Positions 1 to 38,003 of a DNA stretch of 64,000 nucleotides are shown piece after piece (within the stretch, counting starts at the first letter, position 1; each line of letters starts with the position of its first letter). The position numbers were made by a program, and so were the translations under genes. The DNA is from Branchiostoma lanceolatum (Eukaryota > Chordata > Leptocardii > Amphioxiformes > Branchiostomatidae): assembly GCF_035083965.1 (NCBI RefSeq), contig NC_089723.1:32677193-32741192 (forward strand). Direction: 5' to 3'. A model generated the notes under the pieces. It searched no databases, was not told the DNA's origin, and saw only the letters and a program-made list of their open reading frames with translations.

Positions 1-697
1 TGTGCAAATGTAACGTTACATGTGTATGTAGCAAGATTTTATCGACCATTCCGCCCTGTGCGCGCGTTCCGAAGACCAATCGAGTCAGGTTTTAGTTCTG
101 AAAAACTCTGTTCACATATTGAATGCAGCATCTTTGCCCATATGCCTTACTTGAGTTTTGATGCGAGTACTTTCTTCAGTCCGGTCTCTATTCTTAACTG
201 AATGATATACTATTGAAAGTGTAGTGAACGCAGAAATATAATAATCTCGAGCAAGTGCATGATGTTTTCATTCCCATACCCGCTGCATTCCGTACCTTTG
301 TAATTTCGTTCGGATCCTACATTAAAGCGGGTATCTTACAGGACTGCACCATATTGCGCCAGGCATTCTTAATGTGGGCACAACAGGCGTGTGAGATTCG
401 CGCCTATCTGCTTTTTATATATGTGCGCAAATACATGTATTTTTATTGTGTTGCATGGTTTAGATACTAGAATTGTATTGTATGGACCGTACTTATTTTC
501 ACAAATTTTTAGCAGTTTTATTTTTGTCATCACCAGGCCAAAATGCCTCCGCGCCATAAATTGTATATAATCATTATTTACGCTCACACACCCTTATCGA
601 TGCAACGGTAGATAGGTATTTTACCTGCTGGTCCGTGATGAGGCGATCCGATCCGCGGTCGGACCCGTATCTCGGTAGATACGGCATCATCCTTTTA

Positions 698-919
698 GCC
701 CCTTCACACTTGTGCGTATATACAAGTCCGCATAAGTTGCGTAATAACATGTTTTTGGCATGCAGCCGAAGAAGTCATTTCTTTGGTTCGATAACTAGGC
801 TGCACAACGGTGGGTTAAAGTAGAAAACAACTTCTTTCCCGCAAACTTTACTTAAACCAAGAAAGTTAATGCCCGACTCATAAGCACTTGAATATAAGCA
901 CAAGTGTGATAGGACCCTA
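698..919 (-). mobile_element. TIR MITE family A, copy 1 (inverted orientation)
   Basis: About 220 bp bounded by inverted termini of the type CACACTTGTGCGTATAT. The interior matches copies 2 and 3 in opposite orientation (shared core around the AACCCACCGTTGTGC region). No coding capacity, hence a non-autonomous DNA element. Confidence 0.7.
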
Positions 920-1001
920 CGCTTGTGGTATTCTGTATGAACGGACCACAAAGGACGGCTGGTCACCGCCCTGATATCACAAAAAATTACATGGATCTTA
1001 G

Positions 1002-1234
1002 GGCCCTGTCACACTTGTGCGTATATTCAAGGGCGCGTGAGTTGCGCATTAACATTTTTTTTTGGTTCAAGTAAGGTTTGCGGGGAAAGAGTTGTTTTCT
1101 ACTTTGATCCACCGTTGTGCAGCCTGGTTATCGAACCTAAGAAATCATTTATTCGGCTGCAAACTTAACCTAAACCAAAAACATGTTAATACGCAACTCA
1201 CGCGGACTTGTATATGCTCACAAGTGTGACAGGG
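1002..1234 (+). mobile_element. TIR MITE family A, copy 2
   Basis: About 233 bp. The left end CACACTTGTGCGTATAT is answered by a near-perfect inverted copy at the right end. The interior includes TTGTTTTCTACTTTGA and CCACCGTTGTGC, shared with copies 1 and 3. It ends about 110 bp before the first recognised exon. Confidence 0.75.
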
Positions 1235-1347
1235 GCTATACAGAGTAAATCTTCTCCTCTTGATAATGTTTCATTCGGCTTTCCAAATAATCACAGGGAC
1301 GCTCAAAACCTACTTTTGAATAAAGAAGTTTCAAAATCTCTCTCCAG

Positions 1348-4300
1348 ACTGTGTGCCATCGACCCTGAGCGGACCGACGGGCACCATCACCAGTCCGAAC
1401 TACATCAACGGCGTGTACCCCCGGGGCCTGGACTGCGCCTGGACCATCACGGTGCACATCGAGAAGAAAGTTGAACTGATGTTTGACGTCTTTGACGTCG
1501 AGTACCACGACAACTGTGCGTACGACTACGTCCTACTTGAAGAAAATGGAGAACCAATCAGCGTTGCGGGTAGGTCATTGCTACATTCAGCTTTCGCCAA
1601 ACAGTGAACCGTTGGTTCAGAGTAACTGTTCAAGCAGATCTACACCGGTGCAAAAATCGTATAAGCTAGCCAGAGAAGGTCCGATTTTTGCACCGGTGTA
1701 GAGCTGCTTTGAGATTAAGTAACTATCATACCTCAGATTGACAATGCCTCACGCGTGTTTATTTTATTAACTCTTTCTTGGATTATTGGGGTATAACGGG
1801 TCCCAGATGTTTGTATCCCAGAGAAATGGCATCAGCTGTTCTTGTAATAAGTCAATGGTTTTGACAGTATCGAAGATGTTTGTCATTTCTTTTTTTTGTA
1901 TGAACAAAAGATGACCCATTCATCATTGGAAGTTGGGACATCTTTTACGAGTTCTAGGAAGTTCTTTTTCGACTTCTAGGAATCTTAAATCTTTGGCAAG
2001 GTTCCCTTGTTGACCTGCATTTCAGATTATTGCGAAAAAAACTAAGAACAAGAACAGTAAACTCTTACGGATAAATATAATTTCAGTGTTGTTGTTTTTC
2101 GATCACACAATGGTGCGATAAAAGTTGTGAACAAATTAGCCTCCCTTCCCATGAGCGTTACAAGTACAAAACAAGATGCGTTTTCTGACTTCTAGAAGAA
2201 GATGCGGATTCCGAAATAGATGGCGACCCCGAAGAACATCCCACTGTAAACTTTGTCAAACGAACTCAAGATGGTAAGTCATGAAAAACTTCTCATTAAT
2301 CAACATCCATATGATGGACTAAAACATGCTACAAGATGTAAAAAAAAAGGCAAATCCAAGACGTTAAAACTGTGTTTAGTAACTTAGAATACTATCTATG
2401 TTTCCAAAGGAAGGATAAAGAATTGCAGCTGTTTACATTCTAATTGCTACTTTTAAAAACTTCCATTGGCAAACCTAGCTGGTAGACTTTGCATATAACA
2501 GAAGAGATTATAAGTTATATCACATTGCAATATGATTATCAACTGTTTTCGTTGATCTTGCTGTAGTATGAATATCATATACCATTCTATGTTGAACCAT
2601 TCCTTCCAGGGAAGTTCTGCGGTACGAAACCCGGCAATGTAACATGGGAGAGGAACTACACGTCCGTGAGTAACGTCATGACCGTGAGGTTTAAATCCGA
2701 CGCTTGGGTCGACAAGACGGGATTCCGCGCACATTACTCGGCCATTGACAAAGGTATGTGTCATGTGTCATTATGCCGGACCATCAGAGTCGTTCAGTTT
2801 ATCTAGTTCGGGTGCTTGGATACCTAAGGCCCCCATTCCAGAAGACGGCGATTGCCTTGCGCTCTCGCTGCTATATAATATGGATTTGTCGAAACCTTGA
2901 CTTCACAATATCATGCAAAATGCAAAAGTATGGCTAAAAAGACATCAAAGCACACAAAGCTAAAAAAACAAATTCGTTTTTCATCTATGGAATTCGTTGA
3001 GCACACGTTAAATCTTAGGTTGCAGAGGGCGCACGGCGAGCGCGCGTCCAAGTGGATTGGGGGTATGGGCCCTGCTGCACTTGTGCGTATACATATTCAA
3101 GTACGCGTGAGTTGCGCATTAACATTTTAAGTAAAAGTTTAAGTAAGATTTGCGGGGAGAAAGTTGTTTTCTACTTTGACCCACCGTTGTGCATCCTAGT
3201 GATCGAACCTAAGAAATCACTTTCGGCTGCAAACTTAACCTAAACCAAAAACATGTTAATACGTAAACCATGCGGGCTTAAATATACGCACAAGTGTAAC
3301 CGGTGCTTATAACTAAAACCAGTCCTTGTTGTTCGGCTGTCCAGTGCCGGTGAACTGCACGAGCGTGGAGAAGCTGTGTGACGACCTGCTGGGGTGTGTG
3401 GCTCTCGCCAAGATCTGCGACGGCTCCGACGACTGCCAGGACAAGAGTGACGAACGGAATTGCGGTAAGATAGATTCAATACTCCGTTAAGAATTGATCT
3501 GTTTACCCGCATTCTTCACAGTATACAATATATTGTACAATACCTTTTTCCCTATTTCATACGCTTAAGGACAGTAGAAAAATTCATTTTCTTAATTAAT
3601 ACAACCTTCCATCGAGAAACATATGTTTTATCTCTACTATAACTGACAAGCTAGGAGAAGTTGAATTTATCTAATGATAGTTAGTTTTACTTTTAGTATT
3701 TTGTATCTCTTAATTGTATCTGTTCAACATGTTTTGTTTTGTTGTGACGTGTGCTTAGCCCAGTGTGGCAAAAATGTGCAATAAACGTATTCATTCATTA
3801 CATTCATTCAATATCGGATTTACGGTTGACAACGGCTTCATGATCATGATCCAAATCGCACCTTTATTGAGATATTTGAACGCGTAACAGGCCGAACACA
3901 ATTATCAGCTCAGCCAATAAGAAAGTGGATGCATGTTGCTGCCGCTGTGACACAGTTCTCGGTCAAAACTATTTTCCATATCGAAACCGAGTTGTTGGAG
4001 AGATCATTGGATTTATGGGAAAGGTATACATAGTCCTGACTCGTGATATAGAGAGCGCACCGTTGTACTTTCAATGATTTTCGGAAGAAAAGCTCCCAGT
4101 CTGTTTCAAAAACATTCCTCTTCGTTTTTCCTCAAGAATGTGTAGAGATTCCAACAGAACTGGGCATCTGCAAGGGAGCAATCGACTACGGCAACATGGT
4201 CTACCCCAACCTGTACGGGCATGCGGACAAGACAGAGCTCCTGGGTTCCACCAACTTTACCGCGCTGGAGTCCGTCCGGAACAACACGTGCCACGCGGAC

Positions 4301-7300
4301 GTGTTCGCCATGGTCTGCTCCATGCTTGCTCCAAAATGCGTGGAGGATTCAACCAACACCAGGAGGGGCGAGATCAAACCACCTTGCAGGTACATCCTTG
4401 TTTAAAGTTTGATATGATATATACCTCTTGTGAAAGCCCATTCTCTTCCCACTCTAAAATATATTAGATGGATTAGCCTTATGGAACTGTAATTATGTAC
4501 CAGTAGATGCCATACTTTATACCTTGTACAATTGTTGTGCAATAGAGTTATTATGTATTACTTATCATCTATTATCTATCTGTTTTGAGAAAATATTGTA
4601 TGTGAGGGGGAAAATTCTTTTTTAAAGGCAATTGTCGCTGAAACGTCGTCTATCTAGACGACAGTCACAACTGGCAACTGAGGGGTACACAAAACTTGCA
4701 GTACAGGCGTATGGGAAATGGGTATCTATTGTTGTTCTGTAGGACGTGGTGCCCGGAGATCAGTTCCGCCTGTTCGGATCAGGACCTGGTTCCTGGGGAC
4801 ATCTGTGGAACCCTGCCGTTCTCTGCGGACTGTTTCATCAACCGAGCCGAAGTCACCAACACCCCGCCGACACCAACCGGAGAAGGCGGTATGTAATCGA
4901 TTGCTAGCCTCCGTTGCAGGCTCTGAAGCGGCTTTTTGGGGGGCTAAACAATTTTTGCAGCCACCCCGTAACTATCAACCATCCTGTATACTATGGTTAC
5001 AGGATGGTTGATAGTTACGGGGTGGCTGCAAAAAGTGTATTATTTAGCCCCCCCAAAAAGCCGCTTCAGAGCCTGCAACGGAGGCTAATCGATTGCCAAC
5101 TTTTCACTAGCCTCCATAGCAGGATATCTGGACCTTTCGGCTTATGATAAACCTTTTTGTTGATGACTGTCAAAGCAAAGGTCGTCGAAAACAAATGACT
5201 AGAGAATGAAAATAAACTACCATAATGATAGCGTTAGCGTGTATCGAGCCCTATTCACGCGCGCTTCACAAACTGAGTTTCTATGGACGGACGGAGGGAA
5301 GTAGGTTACGTTAAGAGATGGTCACTGATCGCATCTTCTTCTTTGTTGTCGAAGACGGCTGTGGAGGTCTGCTGCCCGGCAACACGGGAACCTTCAGTTC
5401 GCCAGGCTTCACGGAAGGTCTACACTACAGTGTCAACACGGACTGTGTCTGGTCTCTGCGGGTGCCCCCTACCTTAGTCCCACAGATCACCTTCAACACC
5501 TTCAAGCTGGAGGAGGGGCCCACCCCGGGGGACTGTCCGTTTGACTACGTCAGGGTCTTTGACGGAGAATGGCCGGACGGGAAGTTCACAAGCGCCACGC
5601 GTAGGTCATCTTCCTTAGAACTTCTCTAAACGTTTTTGTCAGACACAGGAGGATTGATATTCTTATTCAGGATTTGCTATTCAGCCATGTATCTTGTGTA
5701 CATCATTCCACGTGCACATTATTAACTAGATATACTAAGTAGCTCCTACACCCCCTGCATTTCTATGCCACATCTCTGAGTTTGATTTATTTTGCATGAA
5801 CGAGTTTATCTGGCAATACTAAGTGTTGTTTTCGGTGTTTAATGGCAAATATCTTCTCTGGCATGAACTTTAACTGTGCTCGTCGGTTTTCATGTTTAAC
5901 GGAATCTCACGATTATGCCTCTTGTTGCTTGGTTTGTTTGTTTATTTCACTTAATGCATCGCTTGAAATTTTGTTATGATCGTTTTCTATGAAAATGTTT
6001 GCATGATAACCAGATATTTTTTTGTTATTACAGTTAGTAGTAGAGGTAAAACCGAAGGTAAACATTCCATGTATATTTGCGTTCTCACAAAATCACTCAC
6101 AATCCACAATGTTTGTGTTTTCTGTCACTAATAGCACTGATTCATGTTCATCATCTACGTAAATCTGATAAATGTAATAAACGTAACACTCCTCTGAAAC
6201 ATCTATTTAACATAATCTAATTGTGTGATTTCCAATCTTGTCTCTAAAACACTACACCCGTACAAGTCTTGCTACAGAAACTGTAGTTGTTTATGGAGAT
6301 GACTTGTGCCTCATCGGACGTTAATCACGAAAGCATGCATATGGAGGCCTCAAGAGTAACTGAACACGCTTTTTTTCTGTACAGATAAGCTGTGTGGGGA
6401 AGTCCCTCCCGGATTCAACGTGACAACTGACAGCTACATCCTGACTATCATCTTCTCCAGTGACAAGGGCACTACCAGGGAAGGCTTCAGTGCCTCCTAC
6501 ACCACAACTGACCGAGGTTCGCAACGTTAAGTCACAAAGCTACCGAAATGTTCAACTGTACGACACCCATGTCTTTGTCAAGGAAGGAAGGAAGGAAACT
6601 GTTGCTCTCATTTCTTGACAAAGACTTCTGTCGTACAATCGAACATATGGGTTAGTCCAAATCGTCTTATTAGAAATTGAACTTTGGATAAACGTAATCT
6701 GTAATAACGAAAACTGTTGAATTCACACCGATGGTTTAGCATGTACATGATCTACAACAACTGTTTGTCGCATGAAATGTCCATGCAGGTTCCCTGGGGT
6801 GTAGCCCCGGTGAAAAACCGTGCGGGGACGGCGCCTTGTGCGTGTCGAGGGCCCGCCGCTGCGACGGAGAGTTCGACTGCTGGGACAAGAGCGACGAGAG
6901 GGACTGCGGTAAGAAGTGTGTCTGTGTGTGTGTCTGTGTGTGTGTGTTTCCGGATTTTCGTAGCCAGCATAACTAAGAAACCGCAGGATGGATTATGATG
7001 ATATTTGGTATATGGGTAGGTGTTGGGAAGACGAAAGTCAAGATCGCCCCTGGTATGTGACCTTAGTACTGCAGCAGAACTTCCATTTTTTTTAAATCTT
7101 TATACCTGGACGTGCTATGGTCTTGATTTTTGGTGGTAGAGAGCTTGTTGCTGACTGTGTTCTGCAGCTCAGTCTTGATACGTCCAGCAGCTGCAATAAC
7201 TTCATGTAGCTACGCTGTGTCTCTCGATTGTAAGTTGCTCATCCTGAAAAGTGGCCTGCAGTTTGTTCTACAGCAAGGGGCTTTGGCCACCAAAATATTC

Positions 7301-10300
7301 ACTCATCACGAAAATGCTAATAACATTTACTATACTGGCCAATGGATAACGTGTAATTACAGTCACATATTTTTAACATGATTCATGCAGATTTATAGAT
7401 TTGATTCTACCAGGTTCCACGAACCAGCATGGTGGCTGTGGGCATATAGTAAGCATAATACAAATGTCCACAACACAGAATGAAAAGACTCTTTTTTACA
7501 AAACCAAGAGATTTATTCCACCGACGTTTCGGTGACCATCTGTCACCTTCTTCAATTACTACAAATGTATGTGAACCAGTCAGAGTTGCCTTGAAGAAGG
7601 TGACAGATGCATAGATGGTCACCGAAACGTCGGTGGAATAAATCTTTTGGTTCTGTAAAAAAGAGTATTTTTATTCAGTGACTTACCAATCTGATGAAAC
7701 TATTCACGGATGTCCACAACACATTTATAAACATTGACTATTGGTTGCGTATATCTATAATGCGTGTCTGTATACATTGTATGTACGTATAGTTCTTTTT
7801 CTTTTGTAAGCCTCAATTGAGACGTAACGAACTCAAACGTGATACATTATTAATGACTCTTTACTGCAATAATGATGGGCTGAGGTGAAAGAATGAATAC
7901 AATTCAGTCTTTCACGCCAAGTCATCAAAATTGCAGTAAAACTTGTACCAGTATCACGTTAACATTTTCTGATTGTAACAAAAGTAATATGATGATGATG
8001 TATCATGTTTCCCGCCTTTTGTTTGACAGTTCGTGTTTTTCATGGATTTTCCTCCAGAATGCGTTCCTCTGGAGGGAGAGCTGCAGAAGCTGTGTGAGAG
8101 TAGGGAGGAGTCAGCAAATTTCATGACCTTCCCCAACCTGATCGGACATGATAGTCCCAGCAGACTGACTACTTCTCCTGAGTTCAGTGGGTAAGGAGTT
8201 TATTATCTAAACACTTGTCCTAAACTCCGGGAGTCTGACTGGCTTCTCTGGAGTGGGTAAGGAGTCTTTTATCTAAACACTCGTCATAAGTTCTGATAGT
8301 CTGGTTGCGTCTCTGAGTTCAGTGGGTAAGACGACTTACATACATAAACTTGTTCTTTAGCCTTTTCAAGAAGTGGTGGATGTGTTCGTGTAGTGCTGAA
8401 CATACACTGTAAGACTGACTCCGACACCGAGGGCCGACGGATGATTTTGACGAAGTCGAAACTTTTGATTGTTTCTGGCTGATGAGTACATAAAGATCAA
8501 ATAAATTGCTATTCAAGAAGGCAGTTTATCAGATGAAAATGCTACTTTTGAAGCTTACTGCTATACATGCTCGAACGTTTATACACCTGTCATATCCTAT
8601 GCAACGTTCAAACAGAGTGACCCAACTGAGATGTTTTGTCTTTGACATTATATAGCGGACCGACAATGCAATATTAGTACCCGAAGTCAGCGTGAACCAA
8701 CTGAGATGTAGACAAGCAACATTCGAATGATACAGTTTCTGGATTGATGTTGAATTTGTCATGCCATTGTCTGAATCTTACGGTTGTTTTTTCTTCAGCC
8801 TGACGATGTTGATGATCAGCTCCTGTCACGTGGACATCGCGGAGTTTGTGTGTGAGATGATGGCCCCGAGGTGCGACCGCAGCACGACCAGGATCATGGC
8901 GCCGAGCAGATCATGGTGCGAGGAAGTCAGGTCAGTCAACTTGAGCACGTATTCAGAACGTAATGCGCCTGCCTGCTATTCAAACCTATTACAACTGCCA
9001 AATCTCTTTTGTTCTCTTTGGTCAACGTTGCATCGGAATAACAGCCGTTTAATAAGATATGTCTGGACAAAACAGTATTTGTGACACACCTTAAACCGGA
9101 CAGACTTAAGAGAAGTGTAAATGCTTACAGTATGTGGCATTCAAAATAGTCAATTTTGTCACAAGATATGCGCTGAATCGTAAGTACACGTAACATATCA
9201 ACAAGTGTGTTACCCGTCAAACATGTAGGACATGTAGTAAAATGAAGGTGAGTCAAAAAGTAATGCAAGTGGTTTTATAACAGGCTCATTTTCTATGGAA
9301 TGAGTTGAAAATTGGCACAGAGGTAAACAAATAATAAAGAAGACCTTTATTGTACATTCGTGCCCCGAGGGGCTAAATACAGGTCGTTTAAGATAACTAA
9401 CATGTAACCAACAGTAAGTGACATACACAGCGAACCTGTAATAAAACCACTTGCATTACTTTTCAACTCACCCTCGTGCACGCACATGCCTCTTGTTAAA
9501 GTACTATCTTGCCGACACGCCATTGCGTCATGCATGTATGCTCTCCAGGTCATCCTGTATAGATGAGGACCAGTGGCCTTCAAACTTCCCACCATGCGAC
9601 GTCATCAGTGAAAACCCTGAAGGCATCGAAGGTCTGCAAGGAACGACAGACAGTGAGTTTATCTGAGATGTCATTCATTGGAAACGGATTTGACTTGCAA
9701 TCCAACGTACAGTACAGTACGTAGTTACTATCGATGTTTTACCCTGGACTTGTGAAAGTATGCGAAACAACAGGTGCCCGCCAGCAGACATTTATCCGTG
9801 TAAATTTTAAGAAAAGAAAACTACCCCCAAAAACCACCTGGCCTCATTAGTCAATATGTTTTACGTTTAGGCTGCTATTCTAGTTTTCAATATCTGTGGG
9901 AAATATTCGTATTGAAGGATCTGGATTTTGCTATGTCCAGATGAATGCTACCACGGTAAGGGTACCAACTACAGGGGCGACCACACGGTGACTGAGACTG
10001 GGCGGACCTGCACGGCCTGGGCAGACCATGTGTACGAGACCAACGCCTTCAGGTGGGCTAATCTGGACAACAACTACTGCCGGAACCCCGGTAACGTAGC
10101 GGAGCGGCCGTGGTGTTACGTGGGTGACCAGTGGGAGTTTTGCAGCGTCCCGCCTTGTAGCGGTGAGTCACGCATATCTTTTCCTATCACTTGTACATCA
10201 TTGGTAAACACATCACAGGTACTGTATGCAAGGGGCAGTTTGAGATACTTGTTTGAAAAATTGATAATCTGAAACTTTTAATCATTGCATTGAAAAACGA

Positions 10301-13300
10301 AGGTCTCTATTTCTTCTCATGTAGGTTTGGTCTGCTCTGACAGAGGCCAGCCCCGGTCAGTGACAGTCGGACCGCGGAAGCAGTCCTACTGGCCAGGGGA
10401 CAAGGTGACTTACCAGTGTGACCCCGGGTACTCCCTGCAGGGCTCTGCAGTCATCAAGTGTCTGGCCAACGCCACCTGGGACAACGACCTTCCGACATGT
10501 ATCGGTAAATAACGATTTCTTTTTCAAATTCATTTTCTTAGGCGAGTCAGGTAGACTCATATCTTGGTCTTGAGATTGTTATAGTATCCAGGCTAGTAAA
10601 TGATATGTTCTTTTAGCTATATCCTTAAAGTTGATGGATGACAACGTTTGCTGTACTGTTTTATAAGATATGACTCGTTAAGAATGTGTGGTTCCTCTTT
10701 CATTTCGTCTTGGTCGTGCCGAGTGTACCGATAGCTTTGCCATTCCTGGATATTTCATTATCAAACCAGGTATTACGTTAAAGCCATCAAATGGCACAAG
10801 CCTCCGCCATCAAGTATGAATGTATAACGTAGCATATTGCCAAGAAGACTTCATATACATCAGTACGTATCCCGACTCCCTTGCCTCTAACATTCACACA
10901 TCTGGAACTTGATTCCTTGCCTCAGTGGATGAGCGCCTAGGGTTGAGGAGCGATCTCTTCGACTTCTACAGCAAAGACCTATCGCCCTCTGACGAACGTG
11001 TCCCTATTGTGTTCTCTGGACAAGTTATCAACGTAGTCTCGCTGGTAGGATCATTTGCGTACTCTTTGTCGTCCTGCACAGGAAAGTGATAAAAATTGAA
11101 AATTCGAAGCAGGCTTTTATGATATAATATCAATCGTCTAAGAACTGCACAATTATTGAAGTTAGTATTGGTAGGAAGACCAAAGTTGATTTTGTTTCTT
11201 TTGTATCTGTATTTTAAGGATGAGAAAGGGCCAGAGGTTCTGACTGACATCGTCCTGGAATTGGTGAGTTACAGAAAACAGTTGCCGGAGCATGTCCCCA
11301 TATCATGGAGGTGCGAGGTATGCGAGAAATAGAAGCAATGTTAAGAACGCGCAAATTGATACAAATAGCTGATACAAATGTTAACCTACAAATAGTTGTT
11401 AAGGCAAATATGGATGATTTTCAGACTTTTAACTTAAAGAGAAATTGCGGTATCCTTACTTTTTAGCGCTGGCGTGACCATAGGCTGACTTGGTCACCGG
11501 CAACTTACGGAGGCTTGGACATCCTGCGAGTGTCCTATGACGACGTCTGGACTCCAACAGTAGTTCTGCAAAATAAGTGAGTAACCCACAGAGTTCTTTT
11601 CCGTACACTATCATATTACACTCCTTTTGACGTCTACTCTGTCTCGAATATCACTTGGTCAACATTCGTAAAGTGTAGATGTATCGTAAATGGTATTGAT
11701 TACTTACTACGAAGGACATATCATTCATTCATCCTTTACATCATATCCCTCTCTCTCTATATATCCCTATGTACATATAGCTTCTCGCAATCGCCAATCT
11801 TTTATCTACGACCCTCTGTGGTCTGTTGTAAAAAGAGTTAATGCGGCTGACTCATCATGTACAAGATATTTCTACATAGTCATCTCTTTTACCTTCCAAT
11901 TACGTCTTCTCAGTGCTGATAGAAGCTTCACCAACTTCCCAACCGTGGACGTGACCATCACATCCGGAGGGGAGGTCATCTGGCTGGTTCAGACCCTGGT
12001 CACCACCACCTGCAACCTTGACCAGTACCTCTTCCCCTTTGACTCCATGGCGTGCCCCGTGTGTGTGAAGACCGACCGGAAAGGTAAAGAACTTAGTGTC
12101 TAACATCCGTGAATAATTTCATCATGTTTGTGAATGACTGAATAGCAAGGTTCTTTTATTCACAACCAAGTATTAAAAAGAGCCGACGTTTCGATGACTG
12201 TCATCTTCATCAGGGCAATATTCAGTATAATGTATAGATGTCATACAATGGGTATTGCCCTGATGAAGATGACAGACATTCATCGAAACGCCGGCTCTTT
12301 TTAAATACTTGGCTGTGAATAAAAGAATCTTGCTATTCAACTTAGTGTCTAGTTCTAAAGTTGAGGGGGAAATCATAACAGCAGGAACTTCAACTACATG
12401 TGCAACGTACTGACCTGTTATCTACCACTTCAGATACAGCTGAGTAAAATGCTTTCTCAGTGACTGACAGTTAACTTGATGGATCACGTAATCTTAGGAC
12501 ACTTCGGGGAATTTGGGATTTCTAGGTTGGAACTGAAATCGAAATGTAATGATGGTTTAACGGCTGGAATTCTACATGTACCGCGGAAACAGTAAAATCT
12601 GCATGTTCTGTGGATGCCAGAAAAGGGCAGAAAAACAAAAACAAGCTTATAGATTGGAAAATAGAAAACAGATAGATGGCACATTAGGGTATTGGCTATT
12701 AGATTTGCTACTGGAGGTGTTTTCTTACATTGATGCGGTACGTTTTCTATACATGGCAGAGGAAAAGATGAACTGCCCCCTACCAGAGAACATCACGGCC
12801 GAAAACAACTTGAACTGCAACAGCTCCGCGAGTCTGGTCACCGGGGAGTGGTCCATCGCCATCTCGGCTGGCGTCAGCAGCAGCGACATGGGCTGCCTGA
12901 ACCTGAACCTGCAGCGGAACCCCACCTACCACATGTGCACCACGATCGCTCCGACCATCGTGCTGGCCGTGCTCATGTGCGTCACGTTCCTGCTCCCAAT
13001 CGACAAGGTAAGCACTCATCACACCCCACAACGATAAAATGCTGTTTAGCGTTTCCCCGCACATGGTTTGGGCAGTACTGTTTCGGTTGTTCAGTAGAAG
13101 AAGCGGCGAGCTCGAGGTCCTAAAAAAACAGGCGAGCTCGGTAATTGTCAAGTCTAATGTTTTCTTAAGGCTACGTTGTAAAAAAATGTATGTTGTAGAA
13201 AAAAATGTCATTTGAAGCCTGAAGATATTCTCAAACAGGAAAATACAAAGTAGTTGATGCAGGGGCCGTCCAACGCTATAAGAGGACAGGTTGGTACGTA

Positions 13301-14902
13301 TTCTTAAAAAGAATTTGCCTCGTGTCTTCCTACAGGGAGATCGCCTGTCCTACGGGATGGCCATTCTACTGGCTATGGTGGTGTCACTTGTCGTCATCAC
13401 TGACTTCCTGCCACGGTCTACCATTATCCCATTCATCGGTGAGTCACGGCAGAACACCACCATTGTCCTGATTGAATTATCATCGTTTAACTTATTAACA
13501 AGCTCTTTCTTAGAGTCGATTACGCATGTGCTGTGTCAACGGTGAAAACCCCTGGCTTGTTAGCAGTTCTTGTCTCCACATTGTCTCGAATTGGATAACA
13601 ATGCCCAGACGGGTTTTGTTTGCGTCTCAGGGGCCTTCACCTTTGACACTGCACATGTTTACTCGAATCTACGAAAGCTCTTATTACACCACATTTTCTC
13701 ATACCGATGTTGTCAGGTCAATGGTCAAAGGCAACAAAACACACAAAACGTAACTCGTGTATAGATATACACTTTATAATTTTGTTTGGTTTCCGCAAAC
13801 AACCCTAGCCTGAGTGTCATCCTGTTTCAGTTCCAGGCCAAGGTAGAGCCTGGAACTGAAACAGGATTACACTCAGGCTAAAACAACCCGACCGGTTTGG
13901 AAATATGACATCGACATTAATTGGGGCTTAAACATTTGTTGATTATCTACTGTCATTATGATAAACATCGCATTAATTAGAGGCCCCGTGTTGATTCTCT
14001 GTTTGTTTCATTGCCTTGCAGGAACGTTCGTGGTGGTATCCATGTCGCTCATGGCAGTCTTCATGCTGGCAACCGTCGGTATCATCAACGTCTCGTGCAA
14101 GCAGGGCAAGGTCCCCTCCTGGGTCCGAAATGTGTTCCTCAGGTCAGCTCATATGTTATTACATCTGCTTGGGTCTGGGCCATAAAGACAGTCTAGATCC
14201 ATTAACAACATTACATGAGATGTTACATTTCCCACTATCTTGTGTTGAACAATTGTAAGGAGCTGTGGCTACAAACAGATCACATACCAAGTTGCACATC
14301 CAACGAAAAGGTTAATGTGCCACACTTCACACCTTTTCCCTAGCCTACACAATTAAGTCGTTTCATCAGGACACACAGTCAAGCAAACAGCTGGGTAGCA
14401 ATACGTTTCAGTATGGTTAATGTAAGTGCAGCGATAGAATCCAAAAAGAGATAGATATATCCTATCACGTATCTTGGCGTGACAACAAATCTGCTTCTGG
14501 TCCACCAGGTGCATGGCCCGGTGTCTCCTGATGGGTAACATGGCTAAGGAGACCGACAAACCCGAGGCCGTCCCCAACAAAGTCTACGTCGAGGAGGCTG
14601 GCAACGACAACGGCGCCTTTGCAACCTTTGGCGAAGAGCAGGTGCTGTGGGACAAGTTCAAGTCCACGGGCGACCCTCCGCCAGACGTCCCGGCCATGAT
14701 GCCCGGCATGAAGGTGATGATCTACGCCATCAGGAAGAGCCTGGACCGCCTGAACGTCACCATCGAAGGCCTCCGTCCGGACGAGGAGGAGGAGAGCGAG
14801 TGGATGCGCCTGTCCTACGTGCTGGACCGCCTGTGCCTGTTCCTGTACATCATCGGCCTGATTGCCGCCGTGCCCCTGTCCCTGTTCCTCGGACGCTCTT
14901 AG
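1348..14902 (+). CDS. Chimeric CUB/LDLa/Frizzled/kringle/sushi pentameric ligand-gated ion channel (5' incomplete)
   Basis: Predicted plasma-membrane receptor-channel. Exons: 1348-1569, 2196-2273, 2610-2753, 3345-3464, 4137-4389, 4743-4888, 5355-5600, 6034-6057, 6385-6516, 6789-6908, 8058-8190, 8799-8930, 9549-9652, 9941-10162, 10325-10504, 10926-11044, 11219-11263, 11467-11576, 11914-12083, 12760-13007, 13336-13438, 14022-14142, 14509-14902. Every junction is GT..AG and all phases join without a break (1187 codons plus TAG). Approximate residues: CUB1 1-147, LDLa1 148-187, FZ1 188-320, CUB2 321-454, LDLa2 455-494, FZ2 495-617, kringle 618-691, sushi 692-751, Cys-loop ligand-binding domain 752-950, four membrane segments 951-1187. 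Ectodomain exons are mostly phase 1-1, the class that allows domain shuffling. The first exon begins in phase 1, so at least one upstream exon, probably with the signal peptide, is missing. Two separate genes are possible but unlikely: the sushi-to-channel junction is phase-compatible, and I see no stop, start codon or signal peptide between them. Confidence 0.85.
1633..1708. repeat. Small hairpin (inverted repeat)
   Basis: Arms 1633-1659 and 1682-1708 are nearly perfect reverse complements centred on the palindrome ACACCGGTG, with a 22-nt loop. It lies in the intron after CUB exon 1. Probably a foldback element relic. Confidence 0.7.
3069..3305 (+). mobile_element. TIR MITE family A, copy 3 (intronic)
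   Basis: About 237 bp in the intron before the LDLa1 exon, ending some 40 bp upstream of its acceptor. Same orientation, termini and interior as copy 2, with scattered substitutions and small indels, so it is not a recent direct duplicate. Confidence 0.72.
4496..4557 (+). repeat. Dispersed 3'-tail repeat, copy 1
   Basis: Contains TTGTACAATTGTTGTGCAAT followed by an AATAAA-like tail. Closely similar sequence recurs at 26937-27003. The form resembles the 3' end of a dispersed retroelement; the family was not identified. Confidence 0.5.
4896..5095. mobile_element. Foldback MITE, about 200 bp near-perfect hairpin
   Basis: Two arms of roughly 95 bp (4896-4993 and 5000-5095), almost perfect reverse complements with a loop of only a few bases. 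The outer part contains CCTCCGTTGCAGGCTCTGAA and its complement. It starts seven bases after the donor of the FZ1 exon ending at 4888. Such near identity implies recent insertion or arm homogenisation. Confidence 0.8.
6549..6645. repeat. Intronic hairpin
   Basis: Arms 6549-6582 and 6613-6645 pair imperfectly (CTTTGTCAAG with CTTGACAAAG, GTACGACA with TGTCGTAC). The loop holds a short GGAA tandem run. Confidence 0.65.
6915..6950 (+). repeat. (TG)n microsatellite
   Basis: Interrupted TG/CTG run directly after the donor of the LDLa2 exon (donor at 6909). Confidence 0.85.
7487..7667. mobile_element. Foldback MITE with CGACGTTTCG core, copy 1
   Basis: Arms 7487-7554 and 7591-7667 are near-perfect reverse complements containing CCGACGTTTCGGTGACC and the inverse. 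It lies in the 1.1-kb intron before FZ2. The element at 12141-12338 has the same internal order (CGACGTTTCG, GACTGTCATCTTCATCA-type stretch), suggesting one family. Confidence 0.75.
9247..9472. mobile_element. Mariner-like MITE
   Basis: Terminal inverted repeats of about 39 bp (9247-9285 and 9433-9472) with the core AAAGTAATGCAAGTGG. The pattern resembles the TIRs of mariner-derived MITEs (known family feature). Total about 226 bp, with no transposase remnant. Confidence 0.6.
9941..10504 (+). other. Kringle and sushi (CCP) domains of the chimeric channel
   Basis: Two phase 1-1 exons. 9941-10162 (74 codons) is a full kringle, beginning ECYHGKGTNYRG and containing NYCRNPG, RPWCYV and the final cysteine pair. 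10325-10504 (60 codons) is a sushi/CCP domain with its four cysteines, VTYQCDPGY and the tryptophan before the last cysteine (ATWDNDLPTC). They lie between the second Frizzled domain and the channel. Both are protein-binding folds common in clotting, complement and receptor-clustering proteins. Confidence 0.92.
12141..12338. mobile_element. Foldback MITE with CGACGTTTCG core, copy 2
   Basis: Arms 12141-12220 and 12253-12338 match as reverse complements, including AGCCGACGTTTCGATGA and the inverse. It lies in the intron between the Cys-loop exon and the M1 exon. Confidence 0.75.
13806..13880. repeat. Perfect short hairpin
   Basis: Arms 13806-13838 and 13847-13880 (TAGCCTGAGTGT and inverse, CAGTTCCAGGC and inverse), with a loop of under ten bases. 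Intron between the M2 and M3 exons. Confidence 0.75.
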
Positions 14903-15575
14903 ATGGAGGAACTAGTGGATGACTTGGATACAATTGTTTCATGTTTTAATATCTAGTCCTTCAGGACTATGTTGTCAGAGAGATTGTTTCATACATAGAT
15001 CAAAGGTTTTAAAATATCAAATGTATAATCAAGATATGTGTGCGATTTTGTGTGTGTTTTTGAAATACTTTTTCTGGAATATATTGTTATTTAGATGGTT
15101 TGCAAACTCAAACTGTGAGGTTGTTATGACCTGTGATCCCTGTCAGACAAGTGAAATCTTTAGACACACAAGGTAAATTTCTTTTATATTTCAATATCTA
15201 ATCGATCAATACTATGTTGTTAACGAAGATCGTTAATAATTCGTCAATATCCAATGCATAATCAAGATTTTGTGTACTTCTCGTGGGCACGCAGTTTACT
15301 GCTGTACATATATACTGTCATCTTCATGAAAAGGGTGTATATTGATGGTTTATATAAGAGGTAATGTTTTACTAGCTGAATCACTGTCAGATTTAATTGA
15401 TAACTGACTTTGTACGAGACTAGTGAATGATGACATAGCAATAGCTGTTCTTGATACCATTGTGGAAACCAATGCCTGTATATCTGCATCCTGCTCTTAC
15501 TAAAATGTATACTGACCTAACCATGTGATCAAGTGTCAACTACTGTGTTATCTCTATATTGTGTTATTAAAACAA
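14903..15575 (+). other. Probable 3' UTR of the chimeric channel gene
   Basis: AT-rich, non-coding sequence after the TAG. A candidate poly(A) signal ATTAAA occurs near 15564, followed by an (AAAC)n run. No other feature seen. Confidence 0.45.
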
Positions 15576-17435
15576 ACAAACAAACAAACTGTAGAATTTA
15601 TGCTAGGCTATCAGTGAATGTGTGACCCTTTAATCATATTACGGTATTTGTTGTAAACATATGACAAAAACAAAACAAAACAAAAGGTTGGCGCTGAATA
15701 GGAAGGAATGGAACAGTAAATGATTTCACTTAATGATACTGATGAAGCAATTCAAATGTGTGAGTAGAGTCATATTTGTTTGTAATTCATGGCTCCACGT
15801 CTGAAAACGTGTGTAGCAGGCCGATGGCAAAACATCTGATGTGATAAGTTGATGCTGTGATGTTGCAATTCCTCGCACTGGCGATAGGGGTAAAGCCTCA
15901 CATTGTGAATAAAATGTTGACTGCAATACTTCTTGTCCAGTACATGATATGTCTTTTGTAGTCCATATACACGATGGTAGGTAGCTTGACACATATGAAG
16001 GATTTCTCCCCCGGCCCCGTATGTTTTCATATGGACGATGTGATAAAGACGTACAGAGGGCGTCATCAAGCGCACCTACGTACACGTTGCACCTTTATAG
16101 CTACCTTTCTATTGAGTATTGGGGAGTCAACCAGTAAAGGTTACCAACACACGTTTTTGTCTCCATTGCCATTGTAAGCATGTCAAATTGTCAACCGAGA
16201 ATCCAAATCAATGAGCTTTCCGCAGATTAAAACTCCAAATAAACAAATATGCGATAATACACCCAAGGTAAATATAAAATCATTTAACCGCGGCACAAAA
16301 AGTACGCCCACTCGTGACGAACACCCAACGTTCCCAGATCGTGAGAACAGATCATGTCGAGGAAACTATTCTTCAAATAAACAATGAAGATACTTCAAGG
16401 CAATTGTTTCATTGGAAGAAGATAAGAATATATTCCATGTCGCCACTATCTGCTATTCGGAAAAACTCACTGGATAAAGTACAATATCGTTGACTCTTCT
16501 ACACAAGCCGATGTTAATTCCCCTTCTTACATATAGTGTAGTGTTGCAGACTTGCAGTCCTTAAATGTAACGTTAATGTTGGCAAGGCTCTAGGGTTTAG
16601 TCCACGACTCCACGGTAATGTCAAAATTGTTTCTATTCCATATATGCAATTGTAAGATATGCACTGCATCCTGGCGTTAAGAGAGCTATCTTACGTCTAT
16701 TCTTTTATGCACCGTTTACTTTAAATAGAATCCCACTATATTTTGGACATATGGTGACTTGCGGTTCAAATGTGTAATCAGGTTTGTAAACTTTGACCTT
16801 TCGTCTAATCCCGCGGTTTGCTTTTTCCGCCATAATTGACCCAAATTATAACACGAGGAGTACCCTCTCTTTCTAGCCTTTACACGACTGTCATCATCGA
16901 TGTATTACTCGGGAAACATCAGAAACGCAGAGGTAAGATGTTTTGTTTGCACTACGAGCCCACTGGTTCATGCTCCGATGCTACTGCGAGCTAAAACCAT
17001 GACCTTTTGGGGGAGGGCGCGCGCTGCTAAAGACTGCGGGGATCAGTCCGAAACGAATTTAGCAAGTTCGTTGGTTGATATTTTTATGATAGTTTTTCCA
17101 GTCAGTGATAAACGTGCACAATAAACAAAGTATTGCAAAAACGTAACGTCACTCAATACAAATTGTTGATATGCGGGAGGACGCGCACGCCATCATGCTG
17201 ATCACTCCCCCCCCCCTTCTCCAATTCAAGGCACCACGCTGAGAATGAGATTTCCATCATGTCAAGCACTCAAATGTCACACAGACTACTACAGATATTC
17301 GTGTTGTACCCTTACAATGAGTAAGAGTGGAATCCCACAGGCCTAGCTACCTCAGTAATTTGTTGTTGTCTATTATATCGCTAGACGTGGTCTCTTGGTG
17401 CTGGGTGACGCTTGGTTCAGTTATGAGTCAATTGT
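15576..17435. other. Intergenic; no gene recognised
   Basis: No recognisable coding domain on either strand. At about 16932 there is a good donor (AG followed by GTAAGATG) that could end a non-coding first exon of the zinc-finger gene downstream; this cannot be settled without transcripts. Confidence 0.4.
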
Positions 17436-18397
17436 CTTAGAGACCCCTCTAGGGTTTGCGGATTCGATGGGGTGGTCTACAGGGGTGGGCTAGTGGGGCG
17501 GGCTACCTCAGCATCTACCCTTTCTGGACCTCAAGGCTGTGCATGGGGGTTTGGCCTCTTACGGAATTTCCTTGAAGAGGATCTGGGTCAAGCTGTGGGT
17601 GGGCTAGAGGGAAGGTAACAGCTGATCATATGGCAGGTGGGGGGGGGGGGTACATGTAGGTGCACCAAGACTGGTAGAAAATCCATTTATCATAAACAAA
17701 CTTCTAAGTACTCAGTATACAATGAGGATTTTAGGGAAGAGGTACAAGGGGAAATAAACTGGAAGTTGCATAGGACAGCTAGGGAATGAGAGAGCCTTTG
17801 TTTGACAAAATTCAAAACATATGTCTCACATTTAGACTAGAATATACCTGAATGCATGTGCTTGCATACAATGTACAATGTATTTGTGGTTATGTGTGTC
17901 AGTGTGCATGAGCGTGGGTTGGAATGTTTTAAGTGTGTGTGTTTGTACAATGTATAGTGTTGCTTTTGTTGCTCATTTCTTTTTTGTAGCCACAATGCTA
18001 CTGTCCTGTTGGCCTGACTGAGCAGTATATAAAGGAACAGGGAACATAGTCCTACATGTTTAAAAATCTAAAACTGGGGATAACAAACTCCTGCACGATG
18101 TAAATGTATGCAGTATGCTCATTGCCCACCTCCACCCCCCACTGTAGCATCCCCAAAGCAATATGATCCTTCAGCAAAATAAAGCATTCTTTCCGGCCCT
18201 CCCACAGAGTGACCCATCTTTTCCTCAAGGAAATTCCATTCAATGCTAAACCCCCATGCACAGCCTTGAGGTCCAGAAAGGGTAGATGCTGAGGTAGCCC
18301 ACCCCACTAGCCCACCCCTGTAGACCACCCCATCGAATCCGCAAACCGCCCACCCCTGTAGACCACCCCATCGAATCCGCAAACCCGTCTCTCTAGG
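17436..18397. mobile_element. Large foldback element with about 200-280 bp inverted arms
   Basis: Left arm about 17436-17640 and right arm about 18120-18397 are clearly related reverse complements (GGATTCGATGGGGTGGTCTA and inverse, CTTTCTGGACCTCAAGGCTG and inverse). The unpaired centre is about 480 bp. The right arm holds a tandem duplication of about 40 bp missing from the left arm. No transposase-like reading frame. A foldback or long-TIR DNA element is likely. Confidence 0.7.
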
Positions 18398-19453
18398 TAT
18401 TTAACTCTTGGTGACTTCAATTTGCAGGCTCGCACAGTTAAGGAATTAGTATAGTATCATGTTACAGGGGTACTTGACGTTCATCATGATTTACCTACAC
18501 ATTTTACTGGTACAGATAAAGTTACATTGTATTGCTACTAGTAGCTCTATTCAGATAATTTGGATTATATATAACTATCTCTTTATGCAAGGTTTTTTAA
18601 TCAGTCAGAAGACTTCACAACCCCCTGACATCTGCTTGGAGATTAGTCCAGTACGCTAATATTTGATTGATAGATAGATGCACTTAACATTGACGTCTAT
18701 GATGTTAACATTTCAAATCTCTGTAAATGTAGGCTTTAAGAAGAATTTTGAAATGTTTATGCATGGAGCACTCCTGTGCCCTGGGTTATGGAATATCTGT
18801 GGATAAATGCAAAGATATGACACAGGCAGTGGGCTGCATTTAGTTTTGTTGAAATGATGCTGTTACCATGTTGACTGTCCACTAAAAGATTCCTAATAAG
18901 TGATCATCATACATTCTTGGTGTACTTGGTCTCCTAAATCATACTCTTATATGTATAAACTTGTATATTATAGTTTATATGTAGTTGCACTGTGTGGCTC
19001 TACTAAAACAAGATTCCAAAGAATACAAACGAATACTGATGAAAGCACACAAAGAATGCCATGAAAGAAACAGCTTATTATATGTGTGTTGCACGGACTA
19101 TGTACCATTTCAAGAAAAGCTTTAAGAGAACAGTACATGCTTGATGTATGAACTATGAATAGTCTATGATTATTGAGAATCTTCTTTCAATAGGCCAATA
19201 TGTACAGTTGTTTAATGTAAGCAACAGAGATTTCAACAAAAAGTTGGTGGCCTATTGCCTACTAATATGGTGGCCTATGGATTATGAACAAAATTTCATT
19301 CCAGTCAGTTTCAAATTTGTGAACCCAGTTTGTTCATGAAAACCAGCAATTAAGGCTTCCTCTTGTTTTTCAGAGCCTAAAATAGTTTTCCTATGAACTG
19401 AACCAACATCGAAGCATTACAGAAGGAACACAAATCTTCAGGACAAATGGAAG
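18398..19453 (+). other. Upstream region of the zinc-finger gene
   Basis: AT-rich with no coding signal. A good splice acceptor (TTGTTTTTCAG) ends at about 19373 and would place a 5' UTR exon from there to the ATG at 19454. Confidence 0.4.
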
Positions 19454-22228
19454 ATGGAACAAACCCCAGTTGAAAAGCATGGTGAGGACCCTTTGCCGTC
19501 CATACCTGATGAAAACCAGAGGCCTTTTACCTGGGAAGAATGTGAAAACCAAGCAGAAGTTAGATCTGATCTTCTTGTTCACAGTAGGATGCTTACTGAC
19601 GAAAATGCAGTCCAGTGCAAGATGCCTGATTCTGTATCGACCTCGACCCAGAATGGCAGCTTGCAGCAACAAGATATCAAACTCAGAGATGACAAACTCT
19701 ACAGATGTCAGAAGTGTGATTACAGTACTGCTGACAAATTCAGCCTTTCAAAACATCTAAGAATCCATGCAGCAGTAAAACCCCACAAGTGCAACCAGTG
19801 CAACTATGCAACAATCAGAGAATCCAACCTGAAGGAACACGTGCTTAAACACACTGGTCAGAAACCCTACATGTGTGGAGAGTGTGGCTTCAGGTCAGCT
19901 TTCAGGTCCAACCTGACTGCGCACATGAAGAGGCATACAGGAGAAAAACCTCACAAGTGCAACCAGTGTGACTATGCTACCCTAAGGAAATACAACCTGG
20001 TCTTACACATGGCAAAACACACCGGTGAGAGATGCTATGAGTGTGAGACATGTGGACATAAAACATTTACCTCTGTAGATCTGTCAAAACATCAAAAGAT
20101 ACATAGTAAAGAGAAGCCATACAAATGTAACCAGTGTGATTATGCTACAGTCTTAAGTGCAAACCTGGCTCAGCACATGCTTAAACACACTGGTGAGAAA
20201 CCCTACATGTGCGGAGAGTGTGGCTTAAGGACAGCTTACAAGTCCAACCTGGTGGCACACATGAAGAGGCATATAGGAGAAAAACCTCACAAATGTAACC
20301 AGTGTGACTATGCTGCTCTGAGGAAAGCCCGCCTACTAGAACACATGCTTAAGCACAGTGGTAAAAAATCCTGGAAGTGTGAGGTATGCGGATTACATAT
20401 GTCCACCAGGATAGCCATGTTACAACATCTCAAAAGACATGAAGTAGGTCTAGAGAAACCAGGCGAATGTGGCCAGGGTGAGAACGCAGCAAGTTATTCT
20501 GCTTCTGCTGTTTACATGGTTGAAGCAACTTTTGAAACACTCGCCGTGTGTGGTGAGAGTGAGACAGCTACAAGTACAACATCTTCCTCTTCCCTACATG
20601 GTGTAGGAAAACCTCACGAGTGTAATGATAGTGATAATGCTACAGTTGAAGGGGCCAACCTAGAGTCACAGATGCAAGAATTCAAATACACTGGTGAGAA
20701 ACCCTATAGCTACCTGTGTGATGACCATGACGTCTCTACATCTGACAATTCCAGCCTGTCCTCACATACAGTAGAACCCCACAAGTGTAGACTGTGTGAC
20801 TTCGCTGCAGTAGAAAAAGTTGACTTGGACTTGCACATGGTTGAACACACTGCTGAGAAAACCAACCTGTCTGAAACAGGCGGATATATGGCATTTGCCA
20901 GGGTAGCCCAGTCAAAACCGGTTAGAATACACAGTGACAAAGAGCTTTACAAATGCAGCCACTGTGAGTTTGCTACAGTCTATAGAGGTAGTCTGGACCA
21001 ACACATGCTTAAGCACACTGGTGAGAAACCCTACATGTGTGGAGAGTGTGAATTCCGTACAGCTTACAAGGGCAACCTGTCAGCACATATGAAGAGTCAT
21101 AGAGGAGAAAAAGCTCACAAGTGTGACCAGTGTGACTATGCCACTCTAAGAAAATCCCACCTGAACTTACACATGGCAACACACAGTGATGAAAAACCCT
21201 ATCAATGTGAAATATGTGGACATAGGGCATCTTCTAGGTATCGCCTGTTGGATCATGTGAAAATACACAACAAAGAAAAGCCACACAAATGCAACCAATG
21301 TGACTATGCTACTGTCTTTAAAAAAAATCTGGCTCAGCACATGCTTAAACACACTGGCGAGAAACCCTACATGTGCGGAGAGTGTGGCTTCAGGTCAGCT
21401 TCCTCGTCCAACCTGTATGTACATATGAAGAAGCATACAGGAGAAAAAACTCACAATTTCTACCAGTGTGACTATGCTGCTACTCTAACGGAGGCCAAAC
21501 TGGACTCACACATGGCAACACACACTGCTGAAAAACCCTATTTGTGTGAACTTTGTGGACATAGGGTATGTACTAAGGATGGCCTGTTCCAACATCTGAA
21601 AACACACAACAACGAAAAGCCACACAAGTGCAACCAGTGTGAATATACTACAGTTTATAGGGGTAGTATGGAACGACACATGCTTAAACACACTGGTGAG
21701 AAACCCTACATGTGCGGAGAGTGTGGCCTTAGGACAGCTTTAAGGTCCAACCTGACTGCACACATGAAGAGGCATAGAGGAGAAAAACCTCACAAATGTA
21801 ACCAGTGTGACTATGTCACTGTAAGGAAATCTCATCTAGACGTACACATGGCAAAGCACAGTGTTGAGAAACCCTATCAATGTGAAACATGTGGACATAG
21901 ATCATGTACCTCAGCAGCCCTTACAAAACATCAAAAGGTACATAGTAAAGAGAAGCCATACAAATGTAACCAGTGTGATTATGCTACAGTCTTAAGTGCA
22001 AACCTGGCTCAGCACATGCTTAAACACACTGGTGAGAAACCCTACATGTGCGGAGAGTGTGGCTTCAGGACAGCTTACAAGTCCAACCTGGTTGCACATA
22101 TGAAGAGTCATAGAGGAGAAAAACCTCACAAATGTGACCAGTGTGACTATGCCGCTCTACGAAAAGCCCACCTAGATGTGCACATGCTTAAACACAGTGA
22201 TAAAAGATCCTGGAACTTGGAAGTGTGA
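19454..22228 (+). CDS. C2H2 zinc-finger protein, about 24 fingers
   Basis: One uninterrupted frame of 924 codons. An N-terminal region of about 75 residues without fingers precedes some 24 intact C2H2 fingers of form C-x2-C-x12-H-x3-H, joined by TGEKPY/TGEKPH-type linkers. The fingers alternate in a repeating order (KCNQCDYAT, then MCGECGFRT, then KCNQCDYA, then CExCGH), showing growth by duplication of multi-finger blocks. Residues about 335-440 and 475-500 hold decayed fingers with lost cysteines or histidines, and one finger near 21460 has lost its first cysteine. Presumably a nuclear DNA-binding protein; target unknown. No KRAB, SET or BTB domain is visible. The start at 19454 is the first ATG in this frame; an earlier ATG at 19447 is out of frame. 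The C-terminus is truncated by a frameshift (see the following relic). Confidence 0.9.
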   Translation: MEQTPVEKHGEDPLPSIPDENQRPFTWEECENQAEVRSDLLVHSRMLTDENAVQCKMPDSVSTSTQNGSLQQQDIKLRDDKLYRCQKCDYSTADKFSLSKHLRIHAAVKPHKCNQCNYATIRESNLKEHVLKHTGQKPYMCGECGFRSAFRSNLTAHMKRHTGEKPHKCNQCDYATLRKYNLVLHMAKHTGERCYECETCGHKTFTSVDLSKHQKIHSKEKPYKCNQCDYATVLSANLAQHMLKHTGEKPYMCGECGLRTAYKSNLVAHMKRHIGEKPHKCNQCDYAALRKARLLEHMLKHSGKKSWKCEVCGLHMSTRIAMLQHLKRHEVGLEKPGECGQGENAASYSASAVYMVEATFETLAVCGESETATSTTSSSSLHGVGKPHECNDSDNATVEGANLESQMQEFKYTGEKPYSYLCDDHDVSTSDNSSLSSHTVEPHKCRLCDFAAVEKVDLDLHMVEHTAEKTNLSETGGYMAFARVAQSKPVRIHSDKELYKCSHCEFATVYRGSLDQHMLKHTGEKPYMCGECEFRTAYKGNLSAHMKSHRGEKAHKCDQCDYATLRKSHLNLHMATHSDEKPYQCEICGHRASSRYRLLDHVKIHNKEKPHKCNQCDYATVFKKNLAQHMLKHTGEKPYMCGECGFRSASSSNLYVHMKKHTGEKTHNFYQCDYAATLTEAKLDSHMATHTAEKPYLCELCGHRVCTKDGLFQHLKTHNNEKPHKCNQCEYTTVYRGSMERHMLKHTGEKPYMCGECGLRTALRSNLTAHMKRHRGEKPHKCNQCDYVTVRKSHLDVHMAKHSVEKPYQCETCGHRSCTSAALTKHQKVHSKEKPYKCNQCDYATVLSANLAQHMLKHTGEKPYMCGECGFRTAYKSNLVAHMKSHRGEKPHKCDQCDYAALRKAHLDVHMLKHSDKRSWNLEV

Positions 22229-37968: not shown

Positions 37969-38003
37969 AACCATTCCGTTTATCCATTATATATTGATTG
38001 ACG

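Follow-up and report, generated by a model that had tools for sequence, protein, structure and literature searches.

The locus examined here raises the question of whether a Cys-loop ion channel and a long row of extracellular modules, lying one after the other on the same strand, are the product of one gene and, if so, what such a channel might do. The window, by which we mean the whole stretch of 64,000 nucleotides analyzed from Branchiostoma lanceolatum contig NC_089723.1, was read from 1 to 20000 for the gene model, with exon ends set by phase. Twenty-three exons were placed on the forward strand between 1348 and 14902, and the spliced chain stayed open over 1187 codons up to a terminal TAG. 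Acceptor AG was present at 23 of 23 exons and donor GT at 22 of 22, phases agreed at every join, and each of the 22 introns would add 3 to 16 stops if retained. The 23 consecutive, phase-compatible exons of a preliminary description were all present, and the positions it gave for the two ends (1348 and 14902), the end of the sushi exon (10504), and the start of the channel (10926) matched exactly. The features are as follows.

1348..1569, forward strand: exon 1 of the visible exons, first part of CUB1, phase 1 in and 1 out (Pfam CUB)
2196..2273, forward strand: exon 2, acidic linker within CUB1 (gene model)
2610..2753, forward strand: exon 3, second part of CUB1 (gene model, Pfam)
3345..3464, forward strand: exon 4, LDLa1, 6 Cys, CDGSDDCQDKSDERNC (gene model, Pfam, Cys count)
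4137..4389, forward strand: exon 5, first part of Frizzled CRD 1 (gene model, Pfam)
4743..4888, forward strand: exon 6, second part of Frizzled CRD 1, 10 Cys in the whole CRD (Pfam, Cys count)
5355..5600, forward strand: exon 7, first part of CUB2 (gene model, Pfam)
6034..6057, forward strand: exon 8, 24-nt mini-exon in CUB2, placed like exon 2 in CUB1 (gene model)
6385..6516, forward strand: exon 9, last part of CUB2, its donor GAG/gttcgc the weakest of 22 (gene model, donor score)
6789..6908, forward strand: exon 10, LDLa2, 6 Cys (gene model, Pfam, Cys count)
8058..8190, forward strand: exon 11, part 1 of Frizzled CRD 2 (gene model, Pfam)
8799..8930, forward strand: exon 12, part 2 of Frizzled CRD 2 (gene model, Pfam)
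9549..9652, forward strand: exon 13, part 3 of Frizzled CRD 2, 8 Cys in the whole CRD (gene model, Cys count)
9941..10162, forward strand: exon 14, kringle, 6 Cys, NPGNV (Pfam, Cys count, alignment to plasminogen kringles)
10325..10504, forward strand: exon 15, sushi/CCP, 4 Cys (gene model, Pfam, Cys count)
10505..10925, forward strand: sushi-to-channel intron, 421 bp (splice, start, and poly(A) scans)
10926..11044, forward strand: exon 16, start of Neur_chan_LBD, phase 1 in and 0 out (gene model, Pfam, alignment)
11219..11263, forward strand: exon 17, LBD, 45 nt (gene model)
11467..11576, forward strand: exon 18, LBD, 110 nt (gene model)
11914..12083, forward strand: exon 19, LBD including the Cys-loop (C-x13-C) (gene model, alignment)
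12760..13007, forward strand: exon 20, end of LBD and M1 (gene model, Pfam, hydropathy)
13336..13438, forward strand: exon 21, M2 pore helix (GDRLSYGMAILLAMVVSLVVITDFLP) (gene model, alignment)
14022..14142, forward strand: exon 22, M3 (gene model, hydropathy)
14509..14902, forward strand: exon 23, M3-M4 loop, M4, and stop TAG (gene model, hydropathy, membrane-part match)

Exons 2 (78 nt, acidic) and 8 (24 nt), both of phase 1-1 and in the middle of a CUB, are possible splice variants.

The spliced protein was submitted to Pfam in three pieces, and the counted matches were all above the gathering score; M02D8_5, the third CUB model in piece 1, fell below the cut-off and was left uncounted. The domain order was CUB-LDLa-Fz-CUB-LDLa-Fz-kringle-sushi-Neur_chan_LBD-Neur_chan_memb, with E-values of 1.5e-19 and 4.7e-15 (CUB), 4.9e-07 and 2e-08 (LDLa), 1.3e-12 and 2e-10 (Fz), 6.8e-17 (kringle), 2.4e-11 (sushi), 6.6e-31 (LBD), and 2.8e-22 (membrane part), which bears out the two CUB-LDLa-FZ cassettes, kringle, sushi, and complete Cys-loop channel described earlier. 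At least eight modules, a tower of 751 amino acids, stand ahead of the LBD. The two cassettes are identical to each other at 101 of 293 positions (34%), which marks them as an internal duplication; from this identity, and from the short middle exon similarly placed in both CUBs, we conclude that one cassette was derived from the other. Sequons (NxS/T) are concentrated in the first 920 residues (9 of 11), that is, in the tower and LBD. As read from the sequence, both LDLa1 and LDLa2 carry a DCxDxSDE motif, which we take to be the calcium-cage motif.

In chain order, the modules contain 4, 6, 10, 4, 6, 8, 6, and 4 cysteines. Fz domains normally contain 10 cysteines, and seven of the eight modules have what we take to be the usual number, the second Frizzled domain (FZ2) being two short. 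The loss of two cysteines from FZ2 could indicate a pseudogene, or an assembly artifact in which two unrelated pieces were fused. However, the 1187 codons are free of stops and frameshifts, the other seven modules keep their presumed cysteine number, and a misjoin inside 10505-10925 would need to have preserved both strand and phase, so that we consider this explanation highly improbable.

The preliminary description had also raised Wnt sensing. Against solved structures, the first Frizzled domain (FZ1) matched sizzled best (1.3e-7), followed by Frizzled-10 and -8 (~1e-4), and MuSK and ROR were not named among its 39 matches. The sizzled structure entry is titled as an Xwnt8 inhibitor, and sizzled is a tolloid inhibitor; Wnt sensing therefore does not follow from FZ1. 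Compared to the ten cysteines conserved in Wnt-binding Frizzled CRDs, FZ1 has 10 and FZ2 has 8, and the suggestion was not upheld. The kringle matched the ROR1 kringle at 3.7e-14, with plasminogen and apolipoprotein(a) slightly better among the best 60 of 120 matches. In lysine-binding kringles, the lysine site is an Asp-x-Asp; here, NPGNVAE stands opposite NPDNDPQ in plasminogen kringle 1 and NPDGDVG in kringle 5, and by this alignment the Asp-x-Asp that marks a lysine-binding kringle is absent. Cubilin was the best structural match of CUB1, and Neto-2 and enteropeptidase were among the 42 matches of the CUB1-LDLa1 piece.

Whether tower and channel belong to one gene turns on the joint between them (10505-10925). 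Upstream, an in-frame TGA at 10910 closes the channel frame, which has no Met before residue 136, within the Cys-loop; a separate channel gene would therefore require an upstream first exon. A scan for ATG exons of at least 8 codons followed by a phase-1 GT, scored by best 10-residue hydropathy as the sole measure and run without a positive control, returned two candidates in the joint, with hydropathy of 0.3 and -0.12, neither of them signal-like. When the scan also admitted GTG or CTG as a start and GC as a donor, seven candidates in the joint reached a hydropathy of at least 1.5, all GTG-led and the most hydrophobic (2.45) at 10686-10776; a GTG start would be unusual. Under a stricter filter (donor at least 4 bits, hydropathy at least 2.0), positions 1-10925 yielded two overlapping ATG candidates (6995/6998 to 7052) that by eye are unlike a signal peptide; the reverse strand of that interval yielded none, and 15001-64000 gave 2.9 for every 10925 bases. 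No AATAAA or ATTAAA was found in 10505-10925; a variant poly(A) hexamer, AGTAAA, is located at 10595. With splice-score matrices built from the tested gene itself, leaving out the scored site, the sushi donor reached 7.83 bits, a score that places it within the top 1.5% of the 4207 GT sites in the window, and the LBD1 acceptor at 10926 reached 1.33 bits, the second weakest of 23 and a value equaled or exceeded by 24% of 3688 AG sites. Read-through past the sushi donor gives CIGK and then a stop, two codons past the exon. Considering this stop and the AGTAAA, a secreted short form ending after the sushi exon is possible.

The same stop and hexamer, the GTG-led hydrophobic candidates (best at 10686-10776), and the weak acceptor would also fit two adjacent genes on the same strand, a secreted CUB-LDLa-FZ-kringle-sushi protein followed by an ordinary Cys-loop channel that starts from a first exon of its own, and TrEMBL is described in an excerpt of PMC3927609 as heavily contaminated by chimeric and truncated sequences. 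Nevertheless, a 3' end, promoter, 5' untranslated region, signal exon, and intron would all need to fit into 421 bp in which the ATG candidates reach a hydropathy of 0.3 at best and neither AATAAA nor ATTAAA occurs. The candidates at 6995/6998-7052 do not resemble a signal peptide, and the sushi donor is both strong and of the correct phase. We regard two genes as improbable. Judged from its sequence, the joint looks like an intron, which disfavors transcripts that start or end within 10504-10926, and the single gene model proposed earlier, with its consistent phases and stop-free reading, is sustained to that extent. Summing by judgment the odds of the one-gene explanations, we consider it very probable that one gene covers tower and channel, and we infer that the whole chain is carried by a single transcript.

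No transcription start or signal peptide was found in the window, and the chain is open at its N terminus. Among 20 ATG/phase-1-donor candidates in 1-1347, only 638-809 pairs a hydrophobic stretch (1.9) with a strong donor, and it lies mostly within inverted-repeat arms; none of the 20 passes the stricter filter. Since none of them is a convincing signal exon, the gene start is probably beyond the window. A diverged MITE-like repeat occurs at 699-1237 and 3137-3307, with inverted arms of 60-104 nt that are 82-88% complementary and direct copies that are 86 and 90% identical. Another hairpin, whose arms are 93% complementary, occupies 7474-7680; it overlaps a sequence repeated in inverted orientation at 12103-12169 (78%).

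The exon phases bear on how the two parts may have come together. Each of the eight modules has phase 1 at both boundaries and a length that is a multiple of 3, and exon 16 is entered in phase 1. Intron 1 of nAChR genes lies between signal peptide and LBD and is also in phase 1. Exon 16 presumably corresponds to nAChR exon 2, and we take exons 17 and 18 (45 and 110 nt) to be sized as nAChR exons 3 and 4. Because class 1-1 modules meet a phase-1 entry at exon 16, they probably entered a channel gene through its signal-peptide intron. An excerpt of PMC6354393 states that all vertebrate nAChR genes have their first three introns in common. Alignment of the channel to nAChR subunits sets in at about their residue 7-8, and seven residues separate the last sushi cysteine from the start of most nAChR alignments; with this spacing, the tower should rise stiffly atop each subunit.

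With phase 1-1 boundaries and lengths divisible by 3, any module, or the whole block, could be skipped in frame. Alternative splicing might then produce both tower-less, ordinary subunits and tower-bearing forms. However, such phase symmetry is typical of extracellular modules of these kinds and hence is not evidence of skipping, and we find this explanation rather unlikely.

As for the channel itself, Neur_chan_LBD (6.6e-31) and Neur_chan_memb (2.8e-22) occur in one chain, as in a Cys-loop receptor. The C-x13-C of the Cys-loop is kept, both of its cysteines aligning with C128 and C142 of the AChR alpha subunit, and hydropathy reveals four hydrophobic stretches, M1 to M4, at residues 956-984, 984-1013, 1010-1043, and 1158-1187 of the spliced protein. 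Compared to solved structures, the whole channel matched nAChR beta first (4.3e-41; best 60 of 323 matches), the LBD alone matched nAChR beta and epsilon first (best 60 of 286), and the membrane part matched 5-HT3A (1.1e-20) ahead of nAChR alpha (6.6e-16; best 60 of 90). Since LBD and membrane part match different families best, the channel does not file cleanly under nAChR or 5-HT3. Cation selectivity goes with an acidic residue at -1' of M2 and no Pro-Ala insertion; here the M2 start, GDR, aligns gap-free with the nAChR GEK and has no Pro-Ala insertion, so that a cation-selective type is predicted. On these alignments, we assign the channel as a divergent Cys-loop subunit of cation type. A search for relatives in viral contigs gave three pattern matches, none of them related.

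The binding face is another matter. None of the six alpha-face acetylcholine residues is kept in the whole-channel alignment, in which loops B and C are poorly aligned: Y93 is replaced by Q, W149 by D, C192 and C193 by S, and Y198 by C, and Y190 falls in a gap. For a complementary-face role, which was also considered, the column of residue 55 in the AChR alpha row, which by our numbering is presumably the loop D Trp (W55) of gamma and delta subunits, holds Val here and Arg in alpha. An acetylcholine-binding alpha-type nAChR subunit was considered and rejected, as the vicinal cysteines C192-C193 and the aromatic box are absent (0 of 6, with loops B and C weakly aligned). With none of these six residues kept, "ligand-gated," as the chain had been labeled, is doubtful in its usual sense. 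The stretch from the Cys-loop to M1 (11914-13007) has four extra cysteines, next to the altered loops B and C. It is possible that these cysteines and the altered loops reflect a rebuilt binding site.

We consider it about an even chance that the one gene encodes an accessory or orphan subunit of cation type with a built-in tower for anchoring or clustering. In such an arrangement, class 1-1 extracellular modules would have lengthened the N terminus of a cation-type Cys-loop subunit, and the subunit would either join a heteropentamer, an assembly that we infer, as its accessory partner or be an orphan receptor. These two roles appear most likely given the loss of the classical transmitter-contact residues. 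By analogy with its module kinds, the tower (CUB, LDLa, Fz, kringle, and sushi) might bind matrix or neighboring-cell proteins, and this binding would anchor or cluster the channel in cis.

Alternatively, the tower may be a sensor, a view that we find doubtful: the channel's own transmitter site would be dead, and gating or modulation would come from a protein that binds the CUB, Fz, or sushi modules. The nonconserved transmitter-contact residues, the four extra LBD cysteines, and the seven residues from sushi to aligned LBD would suit it, and gating kinetics are influenced by the N-terminal domain of DeCLIC, as excerpts of PMC9897478 report. The 8 cysteines of FZ2 speak against it. Moreover, accessory nAChR subunits also lack the transmitter-contact residues, yet they are not protein sensors. 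That adhesion to matrix or a neighboring cell, or a protein ligand from either, opens or tunes the pore while the subunit's own transmitter site has decayed is, in our estimate, unlikely; if the tower does act as a sensor, the channel would be gated by cell contact or by an extracellular protein.

Other open frames were observed in the window beyond this gene. A stop-free frame at 19397-22228 (943 amino acids) is rich in C2H2 zinc fingers, with 20 zf-H2C2_2 stretches in Pfam. Further frames matched a family-29 sialyltransferase (34920-35609, reverse strand), an MFS transporter (37998-39173, forward strand), and an aldo/keto reductase split over two pieces (50473-53078, reverse strand). A frame at 27108-27449 (reverse strand) matched the Roc-COR COR-A domain weakly, scoring under the curated cut-off.

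Among known channels, the accessory or orphan subunit that we favor would be most readily set beside non-alpha nAChR subunits and 5-HT3A, with which it shares a complete LBD with Cys-loop, M1 to M4, and a GDR/GEK-type M2 start. In comparison, the gene described here adds at least eight modules (751 amino acids) and four LBD cysteines, and its alpha-face residues are changed. DeCLIC and other prokaryotic channels likewise carry extra domains N-terminal to the pentameric core, but the domains are different and the channels are bacterial or archaeal; the DeCLIC authors describe N-terminal domains of this sort, in excerpts of their paper, as "not found in eukaryotic relatives" (PMC9897478). If the chain is a single transcript, it would break this printed rule.

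The nearest precedent in animals appears to be a set of mollusc nAChR gene predictions with added GAIN or dynamin domains, reported in excerpts of PMC6896357. At the level of gene models, these are an exception to the printed rule; their domains are other ones, and the main text of that paper does not mention CUB or sushi. According to excerpts of PMC4795631, terminal sequence parts were removed before analysis there, and channel fusions with other domains are evidenced at the genome level only. No eukaryotic channel with this layout was among the matches listed by a literature search that covers few subscription papers, in agreement with the earlier statement that no family of this kind has been described. 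In the literature searched, there was no joint mention of Cys-loop with kringle or of acetylcholine receptor with kringle and amphioxus, and the sole co-mention of Cys-loop and CUB domain was a sodium-channel paper with the terms in unrelated passages.

The modules themselves are familiar from separate proteins that cluster receptors, as had been pointed out for this locus and as the excerpts of PMC9083331 and PMC3927609 bear out. LEV-10 and Neto combine LDLa and CUB, and LEV-9 has CCP (sushi) modules; LEV-9 and LEV-10 cluster AChRs, and Neto does the same for glutamate receptors (iGluRs), as given in excerpts of PMC9083331. The CUB and LDLa of LEV-10 and Neto and the sushi of LEV-9 all recur here, with the CUB-plus-LDLa ectodomain detected by Pfam on the channel chain itself; LEV-10, LEV-9, and Neto are separate proteins that act on a channel, whereas here the modules are fused to a predicted one. 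Provided that the transcript is single, the channel would carry in cis the kinds of module that elsewhere anchor receptors as separate proteins, and it would offer a natural test of co-evolution between clustering proteins and receptors. ROR has Fz and then kringle, and the order in MFRP is CUB-LDLa-Fz. Both arrangements recur in the tower, although ROR, MFRP, and MuSK are kinases or single-pass proteins with no channel; MuSK shares the Fz and, in fish, amphibians, and birds, the kringle (excerpts of PMC3927609). Finally, amphioxus adhesion GPCRs have been reported with kringle, CUB, and LDLa (excerpts of PMC2246102). There too, similar modules were recruited onto membrane receptors, which differ from the present chain in being seven-helix receptors, and a single transcript at this locus would extend that recruitment to ion channels.
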